NCBI RefSeq assembly: GCF_000003815.2 | Contig: NC_049983.1 | Span: 1,146,900 to 1,210,899 of the forward strand | Source of the DNA: Branchiostoma floridae | Taxonomy: Eukaryota; Chordata; Leptocardii; Amphioxiformes; Branchiostomatidae | Direction of reading: 5' to 3' | DNA: 64,000 nt | Shown here: positions 56,879 to 63,187 of the stretch, one piece after another | Numbering within the stretch: position 1 is the first letter of the stretch | Layout of the letters: every line of letters starts with the position of its first letter | The notes under the pieces: generated by a model | What the model saw: the letters and a program-made list of their open reading frames with translations, nothing else | What the model was told of the DNA's origin: nothing | The model's database searches: none | Program-made: the position numbers and the translations under genes

Positions 56879-59800
56879 TTAAATTAAAAGGTTATGTGCC
56901 TTTAATTGTTTTCTAAAATTCGAGTAGTTGAAGGGTGTGCCGCCTCCAACTGGAACCCCAAATAAACTGGGGTGTGCCAGATTGAGTACCTTGTATTCAC
57001 AGATGCAGCATTTCGCGAGTCTGCATACAGCATCTCTGCAGTGATTGAAGACACGTTGGATATTTTCTGTGTCCACAGCACATGTGAACTTTGCACATGT
57101 GAAGTGTGGGAAGACGTCTAGCAGGTCTTCCCCACTTGCTGTGATAATCCGCTGAAGAGAAAGTAAACAACAAATGTTAGGCATAGTTGAAATCAAAGAG
57201 AGAGAGAAAGAAATGGATTTTGGCAGTATCATTCCATCAAACAAAACTAGTGTTCCACGAACACATACCTACGCCAAATAGACCAGGTTTGTAGAATGAC
57301 GTATGTAGACATAAAAAGTGTTACTCATTACATTTTATTTCATATTTTATTTGATAAAGTCACACAAACTCTTATCAACTAGAGTTCGACTACCTCATAC
57401 CTCCATGAAATATTAACCCTATCCAGACTGGGGGAGGGGGTTAAAGTGCCTCCGACAACTTTGACGTCGTATAGCTCACAAAAGGATTGTGCTAGAGCAA
57501 CCAAACTTTTCCTAGAATATTGTTGGCAACAATTTACAAAAAATAGAGGGAGTTTATAATTTTCGTGTTGCTATAGCAACGGTTTCTGAAAGGCAAATTT
57601 GACAAAAATCACTAATTTTGGTTCAAGCAATGGGATTTTAATATTTTCTTGCTAAACTAAACTTCTTTTCATATATCTTTAATATCTAACATATCTAAGT
57701 TGAACATTTATAATCAAATATTAGAAATTATGCTAATTAGATGACGTAATTGGCCAAAATCCAAGATGGCCGACAATATAGTGATGAAAAGTGTAACCAG
57801 CTTATTTTCACTTGGATTTCATCACTACTTTGTATTGTATTACAGAAAACATTCATATGAAAGTTTTTAATCCATTTTCATGGGATTTTAGCGTTATATG
57901 TTGAAAAAGATGTACCTTATGACATTTAAGGTTGATAATCCAAGATTGAGGATAGGTAAACTACAGATGACGTCATTTTATGACGTCATTTGTACGTCGT
58001 TGCGTCGGCTTTTGACAACAGAAGTCTTATAACACTTAAATATTGATGAGAAACCTTATTGGTAACATTTTGTGAGAACTATTTCGGTATTATGGGAATT
58101 CCCCGTTTTAGCCCCAAAAATAAATTAATGACGTCATAATTACGTCATATTACGTCAAAATGATATAAAATTTCAGGAATTATAAAACTTGACTAGTATA
58201 TCACCCCCTTCAAATTTGGTGATCGTACAGTAAGTCGTTTTGAAATGACGAGGGGCTGAAACTTTGTCATGACGCTAAAAGCTATCTACCACCAAAATGT
58301 CAAGACCATATCATGTCCTGGACAAGAGATACATTGAAGAAACTGCTGTGACAGAATGTTCTAATTGATTATGCATATGCATATTATGTCAAATGATCCA
58401 TATTTCTATGTTGCAAACTTCATCGACAAAACAAATCTGGATCACACCTAGCTTTTTATATTTCAGCCATACCATAGGTGTGGTGAAATATGTATGGTGA
58501 AATATATTGTATTCGTAATGTTTCTTCTTTCTTTCTTTCTTTCTTTCTTTCTTTCTTTCTTTCTTTCTTTCTTTCTTTCTTTCTTTCTTTCTTTCTTTCT
58601 TTCTTTCTTTCTTTCTTTCTTTCTTTCTTTCTTTCTTTCTTTTTTTCTTTTTTTCTTTCTTTCTTCCTTCCTTTTTCTTTCTTTCTTTCTTTCTTTCTTT
58701 TTTCTTTCTTTCTTCCTTCCTTTTTCTTTCTTTCTTTCTTTCTTTCTTTTTTCTTTCTTTCTTTTTTCTTTCTTTCTTTTTTCTTTCTATCTTTCTTTTT
58801 GTTTTTGTTTGTTTATTTTGAAACACCTGGGTAGCCTATTTAGTGCCAATACACTGGTTTTCAATAGGGCCCAGTTTCACATATAGTACATACATGGAAA
58901 TAAAAAAAAACAACTTACAGAGAGAAAAGTAGACATACACGTCGGAACATATGGATACAACTGAAACATGAAAGACATATAACTCAAAATCAATTTCTTT
59001 CTTTCTTTCTTTCTTTCTTCCTTCCTTTTTCCTTCTTTCTTTCTTTCTTTCTTTCTTTCTTTCTTTCTTTCTTTCTTTCTTTCTTTCTTTCTTTCTTTCT
59101 TTCTTTCTTTCTTTCTTTCTTTCTTTCTTTCTTTCTTTCTTTCTCCTGTCAAATCTTCAAAACACGTTATCTCCCAATTTGGCACAAGGGTAGAGTGGGC
59201 CAATACCCCCAGGCGCTTTTTTTTTCTTTTTTGTCATATCTGCCCTTAAAATGATCCGCCTTTTTTAGACCAAAACTGTATATGTTGGACCCATGTGCAC
59301 TGGTATTGCAACCGAATGACCTGAAATTTGACACAGAGGTGCCTTGATCATATGCCCACATATATCAAATAATAGTTTTGGCATACAGTACAACAAGATG
59401 CTTAATTTTCCGATTTTTTGGTCATTTTTTGACAAAAAAGTACATTTTTGGCTCCTGTACCCTGGTTTTACAACCAATTGCGCTGAAATCTGGCATAGGA
59501 GTGCCCTCCACATTTACGTCCAAGGATTGAATAACAATTTTAGCATACAAAACAACAAATGATTAATTTTGCGATTTTGTGGTCCTTTTTTTTTACAAAA
59601 AAATGCCACTTTTGGCTCCTGTACACTGGTTTTACAACCAAATGACCTAAATTGTGGTAGAGGGGTGCACTAGATATTCATTCAAATGACCCATGTATTA
59701 TTTTTGGTATGAACCACTTCAAAACGATTTTTTGGTGGATTTTTTTGGGTCATTTTGCAATGGCCACAGGGGTCAATGACCTCAAGGACGTTGACCCCAT

Positions 59801-62800: not shown

Positions 62801-63187
62801 CACAGTGACTTAGTGATAATCAAAAAGAGGCAACCTGCGATAGTCTGTTTCAGCACAGTAGTTATTAATGGGGAAAAGTGGGAATGGTGACAGAATATAA
62901 AACTGTAAATGTATTTAAGTTCGCGAGGATTTAATTTCGCGGTAGCGGGAAAATGGACTTTTCGCGGTGGTTTTAAGCTCGCGGTAGCGCCATGCACTGT
63001 AGTATCTTACTTAAAATGTTCGCGGTGGTTTTTAATTCGCGGTGAAGTGGTCACCGCGAAAGCCACGAACATTAAACCACCGCGAACATTTCTGCATTTA
63101 CAGGCATTGCTAGATTTCAGTTACTCACCAGTGAAATACTCAATCCATCTTCGTCTTTCACCCCTTTGATCCCCTACATCAAACATG
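56879..63187 (-). CDS. G-alpha-s-like heterotrimeric G protein alpha subunit, C-terminal half, divergent
   Basis: Exons: 63129-63187 ([19 protein letters not shown]), 62667-62786 ([20 protein letters not shown]...SIWNN), a hidden exon in the N gap of which 62066-62094 is seen (ISRYSTPSD), 61269-61336 ([20 protein letters not shown]) and 56879-57151 (RIITASGED..., 90 aa to the stop). Visible joins are in phase and align with G-alpha-s ([46 protein letters not shown]). G-alpha-s couples receptors to adenylyl cyclase. Oddities: G3 reads DVGDQ instead of DVGGQ; the G5 loop reads [15 protein letters not shown], a 5-residue duplication; and the helix alpha-5 end, normally the receptor contact and terminus, is replaced by a Cys-rich extension of ~30 residues. 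NKxD lies in the gap. 5' exons are beyond the window. Divergent paralogue or decaying copy. Confidence 0.88.
57413..58275 (+). repeat. ~0.85 kb dispersed repeat with CRE palindromes, copy 2
   Basis: Opens TTAACCCTATCCAGACTGGG and repeats the layout of copy 1, including GATGACGTCATTTTATGACG and AATGACGTCATAATTACGTC. Lies in the last G-alpha intron. Confidence 0.7.
58525..58800. repeat. (TTTC)n microsatellite
   Basis: About 270 bp of TTTC with TTTTC and TTCC variants. Overlapping Phe/Ser- and Lys/Glu-rich ORFs are artefacts. Confidence 0.98.
58994..59144. repeat. second (TTTC)n microsatellite
   Basis: 150 bp of TTTC with one CTTCCTTTTTCC interruption, 190 bp from the first, on the same strand. 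Confidence 0.98.
59255..59760. repeat. three tandem ~165 bp units
   Basis: CTGGTTTTACAACCAA followed by an ACCTGAAAT/GCTGAAAT and a GGTGCC/GTGCCC word recurs at about 59300, 59462 and 59627; poly-T and GGTCATTTTTTGAC also repeat. Confidence 0.8.
59925..60620. repeat. five tandem ~130 bp units
   Basis: TGGAAGAGTCCATT...TGCACnGAGGGGG, TTTTTTAAAATTC and TTTGGACTGGTCTA recur near 59930, 60050, 60190, 60315 and 60430. Short ORFs follow the repeat and are not genes. Confidence 0.75.
60760..60960 (-). mobile_element. tRNA-derived SINE, reverse orientation
   Basis: Minus strand begins with GGCGTGGCGTAACTGGTAGC (A box), B box GAGTTCGATCCCCG, then CTTGGGAAATAATGCACTTT and GGTGTAAAAATGGGTACCTG. Same tail type as the SINE at 18945. 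Confidence 0.8.
61663..61760. repeat. (AAT)n/(GAT)n/(GAC)n microsatellite
   Basis: AATAATAATAATGATGATGA passing into GACGACGACG and back to AATAATAA. Confidence 0.97.
62095..62194. other. assembly gap, 100 N
   Basis: Exactly 100 N, a conventional unknown-size gap. It hides most of the G-alpha exon carrying the NKxD guanine-specificity motif. Confidence 0.99.
62903..63103. mobile_element. MITE of the TTCGCGGT family, copy 2
   Basis: CTGTAAATGTATTTAAGTTC to AACATTTCTGCATTTACAG, ~200 bp with TTCGCGGT repeats and a GGTCACCGCGAAAG centre. Ends 26 bp from a G-alpha exon. Confidence 0.85.

Follow-up and report, generated by a model that had tools for sequence, protein, structure and literature searches.

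A Gs-alpha duplicate of Branchiostoma floridae that has very probably been lost or is being lost

The window analysed here, a 64-kb stretch of the Branchiostoma floridae genome (C5:1146900-1210899), contains the last exons of an unusual G-alpha copy that is, in all likelihood, a once-constrained Gs-alpha duplicate recently lost or in the course of being lost. It arose by duplication of a Gs-alpha gene (preGNAS), together with its introns and ~0.6 kb of upstream DNA, and lies on another contig than its parent. During much of its history the copy was probably translated and partly constrained, chiefly in its helical domain and reading frame. The GTPase core would have been freed from constraint and have drifted, loss of the exon-10 donor would truncate any product ahead of NKxD, and the copy is probably by now a pseudogene or heading there. 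Measured against its parent, which the genome still contains, this odd-looking G-alpha is most likely explained as a duplicate on its way out, and altered GTPase motifs read off raw exons can be side effects of such decay.

Locus, class and parent gene

The copy spans about 16 kb, from exon 1 at C5:1220161 down to a single exon 12/13 pair at C5:1203778, and its P-loop exon (C5:1215809-1215883) lies beyond the limits of the window. Exon labels follow human GNAS and, for pairs such as 12.1/13.1, the nomenclature of PMC5896119. All exons in the window are on the minus strand. The exon 9 equivalent (63129-63187), where the parent letters are MFDVGGQRDERRKWIQCFN, covers G3 and switch II and has an intact GTGAGT donor; the exon 10 equivalent (62666-62786) covers switch III and ends in ESIWNN. 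An assembly gap of exactly 100 N (62095-62194) covers most of the NKxD exon, exon 11, of which the last 29 nt can be read (62066-62094), with a GTAAAT donor and in phase with exon 12. The exon 12 equivalent lies at 61269-61336. The last exon, equivalent to 13.1 (56879-57151), includes a 15-nt insertion and a read-through tail closed by TAA. The first-pass annotation described phase-consistent exons, and the phases of the four at 63187-63129, 62786-62666, 61336-61269 and 57151-56879 are indeed consistent. A tblastn scan of the window with pieces of human exons 12 and 13 revealed no second such pair.

Intron 9 of the copy carries a MITE-like, high-copy dispersed repeat with imperfect inverted-repeat arms (62902-63103, minus strand). 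The parent intron 9 is without it, the two stretches there that match the copy being separated by 12 bp. Among the matches listed, from the best 40 of 4346 candidates scored, 39 of 43 were copies of about 62902-63103, at ~86-90% identity. The intron between exons 12 and 13 holds two long TTTC/GAAA tetranucleotide arrays (58521-58798 and 58994-59144). Elsewhere in the window, a 1081-aa open frame at 4164-7409 on the minus strand has many tetratricopeptide repeats and is nephrocystin-3-like, with a DUF294 nucleotidyltransferase match slightly below cut-off. Two similar BTB-BACK frames (29425-31065 and 50266-51708, both on the plus strand) have Kelch-type matches below the curated cut-off, and a tandem array of ~23 copies of a 54-nt unit, also readable with a 155-nt period, occupies 14721-15931.

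Exons 9 and 10 together scored 81.9 bits on the Pfam G-alpha family (PF00503), above its cut-off of 48.8, and exons 12 and 13 alone scored 25.2 bits, under that cut-off. The leading solved chains were miniGq (engineered), 9m55 (an unnamed G-alpha), Golf and Gs, with 9m55 the best natural-looking chain for exons 9-10. A few PPR chains were also present among the solved-chain matches, none of them with any stretch passing alone. Identity to human Gs is ~65% (90 of 139 residues compared). The family score, the presence of Gs and Golf among the best chains and an exon-by-exon homology with preGNAS on contig C6 bear out the proposal of a G-alpha-s relative. By its closest relatives and exon borders, the copy belongs to the Gs class (preGNAS/GNAS/GNAL). 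Membership in Gv was ruled out, as sequence and parent are both Gs.

The genome searched (513,431,437 bases in 431 contigs) gave 46 G-alpha matches, of which two places look Gs-like by exon borders, namely the C5 copy and C6:20370-20401 kb. Exons 9-10, searched at the DNA level, returned, among the best 40 of 4346 candidates scored, these same two places and otherwise the dispersed repeat. Two other G-alpha loci on C5 (27.749-27.757M and 27.969-27.977M) lie on opposite strands ~0.2 Mb apart with near-equal exon scores; they may reflect a recent inverted duplication or else an artefact of the assembly.

The C6 parent has exons 1-11 plus the alternative pairs 12.1/13.1 and 12.2/13.2, an arrangement reported for cephalochordate preGNAS in PMC5896119. 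Its letters read GAGESGKST, DVGGQ and NKQD, with one FTCA per exon 13, and the gene looks intact. Introns and ~0.6 kb of upstream DNA can be aligned in pieces between copy and parent, which makes the copy a DNA-level (unprocessed) duplicate; a retrocopy was ruled out because the introns are kept. A haplotype of the parent was likewise ruled out, the copy lying on another contig with ~15% non-coding divergence. One aligned piece is out of order, parent 12017-13198 (local coordinates) being placed before exon 2 in the copy. This stretch of intron 1 of the copy (C5:1218177-1219318) resembles parent intron 4, so that the duplicate was rearranged or a repeat is common to both. At the 44 amino-acid differences between copy and parent, human Gs sides with the parent in 36 cases, with the copy in 2 and with neither in 4, 2 being left uncompared. 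The changes thus occurred mostly on the side of the copy.

Lesions in splicing, GTPase motifs and the C-terminus

In the copy, GT is retained at ten of the 11 donors that were compared, the exception being that of exon 10 (62660-62665, minus strand), which reads TTGAGT where the parent has GTGAGC. All 10 acceptors compared keep AG, the acceptor of exon 11 being unread. Read-through past exon 10 gives IWNNS and then an in-frame TGA at 62664-62662. Scored with approximate human frequencies, an alternative donor one base earlier was worse than 83% of the GT sites on the minus strand. On such frequencies the best cryptic donor between 130 nt before and 420 nt after the lost site was at 62621, past the TGA. 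In exon 11, the BLAST placement against the parent puts a one-base deletion five bases from the N gap; this deletion is probable, an ungapped alignment with more mismatches being also possible. Both the donor change and the deletion are single-base calls in one assembly, and the deletion adjoins the gap. In exon 1, insertions of five bases and of one base jointly keep the frame and scramble the N-terminus. The first-pass annotation saw no stop or frameshift, which holds for the interiors of exons 9, 10, 12 and 13 but not for the exon-10 donor, lost with an immediate stop behind it, nor in all probability for exon 11.

By the readable splice sites, a message would reach NKxD or G5 only through a new splice path, which is possible since the start of exon 11 is unread. 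If the copy still yields a product, this would most likely terminate behind switch III and lack NKxD, the G5 loop and the receptor-binding tail.

The nucleotide-binding motifs are themselves altered, as are switches II and III. At G1 the copy reads GPEESGKST against GAGESGKST in the parent, which keeps the loose GxxxxGKS pattern and departs from the canonical motif; G49, which is Glu in the copy, corresponds to Ras Gly12. At G3, DVGDQ is present as first read, at 63180-63166 (counted by hand), in place of the parental DVGGQ. The reported tandem duplication of FTCA is equally real: the sequence FTCAKFTCA is encoded by an exact 11-nt direct repeat, TTCACATGTGC...TTCACATGTGC, with a 4-nt spacer (57103-57078, minus strand), a net insertion of 15 nt, so that the TCA loop of G5 occurs twice, downstream of the lost exon-10 donor. 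Human Gs and the parent both have DVGGQ and a single FTCA at the corresponding places, so that both changes are derived in the copy. The Gln after DVGD and the RCRVLTSG of switch I are kept. A literature search for DVGDQ returned matches only about gels and graphene, judged by their titles.

At the 3' end, helix alpha-5 had been described as running into an extension. The open frame does run on for 34 residues past EYKVL, but it is not alpha-5 that continues: the copy is homologous to the parent exon only as far as CRD, and beyond CACTGCAGAGAT it lacks the 13 final codons of the parent together with the stop. The receptor-binding C-terminus of alpha-5 is thus absent from the copy. Most of the tail without homology to the parent exon (56879-57031, minus strand) matches DNA that follows the stop in the parent. 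For its first 53 nt the parent locus gave no convincing match, the next 47 nt correspond to parent 25209-25255, and from position 107 on it corresponds to the parent from 25363 (local coordinates). The two matching stretches make up ~94 of the 153 nt of the tail, and in the parent the nearer lies ~1.65 kb past the stop of exon 13.1, still ahead of exon 12.2. Judging by its place, this parent DNA is probably non-coding.

Substitution rates and traces of constraint

Copy and parent were compared by a simple Nei-Gojobori count over 942 nt of matched codons, in pieces cut by hand. The count leaves aside the 5' end of exon 1, which aligns poorly, the part of exon 11 ahead of CGA (the site of the probable deletion), the 15-nt insertion and the tail. 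The resulting dS of 0.107 and dN of 0.073 give a ratio of 0.685, whose bootstrap limits (0.42-1.23) fit relaxed constraint as well as neutrality. Non-coding divergence, like the indel rate derived from stretches that BLAST aligned at E 1e-25, amounted to 757 of 5072 positions (0.149), or 621 of 4211 (0.148) without the out-of-order pieces. If the parent changed little and the copy drifted neutrally, a dN of ~0.075, about half the non-coding divergence, is predicted, against the 0.073 observed.

The reading frame behaves differently from this neutral expectation. Non-coding indels occur at 24.3 per kb (23.7 without the out-of-order pieces), from which 8.7 frameshifts are expected in the 942 nt and none was observed (P=0.00016; 8.6 expected, P=0.00018, without those pieces). 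In the helical-domain exons 4-6, where 15.2-15.4 non-synonymous changes were expected, there are 2 (P about 3e-5, a contrast picked after seeing the data). Set against the other exons in a Fisher test, exons 4-6 stand out less strongly (P=0.020; 0.025 with 13a left out). Without the much-altered 13a, the other exons show 38 non-synonymous changes against 35.4-35.9 expected, a neutral number. Gene conversion was rejected as the cause of the conserved exons 4-6, as synonymous changes there (5 in 64.0 sites) show no clear deficit relative to the other exons (16 in 146.7). Around exons 2-4 the divergence of non-coding DNA is below the average (0.107 against 0.148), and some gene conversion may have occurred around these exons.

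The absence of frameshifts and the deficit in exons 4-6 together indicate that the copy did not decay freely from the start. A simulation from the copy itself, at assumed divergences, produced neither stop nor frameshift in 29% of the runs when 5% of the amino acids changed and in 1.8% when 15% did; the rate comparison between copy and parent supersedes it. The plain neutral pseudogene, put forward there as the refuting case, is too simple a description, given that the frame and the helical-domain exons were protected during part of the copy's history. Some modest interest remains in the helical domain, where constraint seems to have outlasted that on the nucleotide-binding core.

Competing explanations and known relatives

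The alternative of a decaying paralogue, already offered in the first-pass annotation, agrees best with these results: the lost donor with its immediate stop, the probable exon-11 deletion, the loss of the C-terminus with its stop, the scrambled N-terminus and the near-neutral amino-acid change in most exons. As an intron-keeping duplicate with disabling lesions, the copy would qualify as an unprocessed pseudogene on its sequence. The same lesions argue against the annotation's other option, an expressed protein with unconventional nucleotide handling. We consider a full-length Gs-alpha relative of this kind the least probable of the explanations weighed here: its fully readable exons are open and in phase, and the Gln after DVGD and RCRVLTSG would suit it, but, with the readable splice sites, a message would need a new splice path to include NKxD or G5, a frameshift in exon 11 is probable, the tail derives from past the parental stop, and the GTPase-core exons changed at a near-neutral rate. 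By our own alignment and residue count, the sites of G226 and R258 are moreover Asp and Gly in the copy, and in human Gs G226A and R258A reduce adenylyl cyclase activity, according to PMC11325797.

A truncated product that is still functional, with intron 10 retained, would comprise the N-terminal helix, the helical domain and switches I-III and end in IWNNS, perhaps as a decoy or a partner-binding fragment. The matched codons of exons 1-10 keep the frame and diverge less (31 of 581.9 non-synonymous and 13 of 165.1 synonymous sites changed) than those of exons 11-13 (20 of 149.3 and 8 of 45.6), exons 4-6 look constrained and, apart from the two insertions near the start, the lesions found are at or past the exon-10 donor. 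A recent end of selection gives the same pattern, however, and the synonymous sites of exons 11-13 are also more changed. Amino-acid changes are numerous in exons 1, 2 and 9. A Ras-like fold cut in half would probably be unstable, and messages with a stop in a retained intron are prone to nonsense-mediated decay. We therefore judge such a product highly unlikely; if it existed, a helical domain with a crippled half of the GTPase core would have been kept as a decoy or scaffold, with exons 11-13 rotting behind it. Also unlikely, if less so, is that the paralogue is otherwise sound and its lesions stem from an error of sequencing or assembly or from a defective allele. The exact 100-N gap next to the exon-11 fragment and the apparent protection of the frame and of exons 4-6 would be in line with this, but the changes are many and spread across exons, the donor, the 15-nt insertion and the lost end are separate events, and the different contigs and the extent of non-coding divergence exclude a mere haplotype split. 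A once-constrained duplicate on its way out is thus the reading that we retain.

G-alpha pseudogenes and fragments are already known. PMC5896119 lists human GNA pseudogenes and describes G-alpha fragments of unclear status in a lancelet and other animals; in the sections covered, the copy is not mentioned. The present copy is another such case, with an unusually clear parent. Vertebrate GNAS and GNAL (Gs-alpha and Golf) are among its best solved chains, but its motifs are altered. The preGNAV-like fragments of S. kowalevskii and B. belcheri, as presented in that paper (PMC5896119), are like the copy G-alpha remnants of uncertain coding status; they are described there as Gv-like, whereas the copy is Gs-like by sequence and by parent. 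Its closest counterpart is the cephalochordate preGNAS on C6 (Lokits et al. 2018, PMC5896119), with which it has exon borders and phases in common and ~92% nucleotide identity over the 942 coding nt (51 non-synonymous and 21 synonymous, that is 72, differences). The parent has two exon 12/13 pairs, whereas the copy has one, together with a lost exon-10 donor, DVGD, GPEESGKST, a 15-nt insertion and a lost C-terminus.
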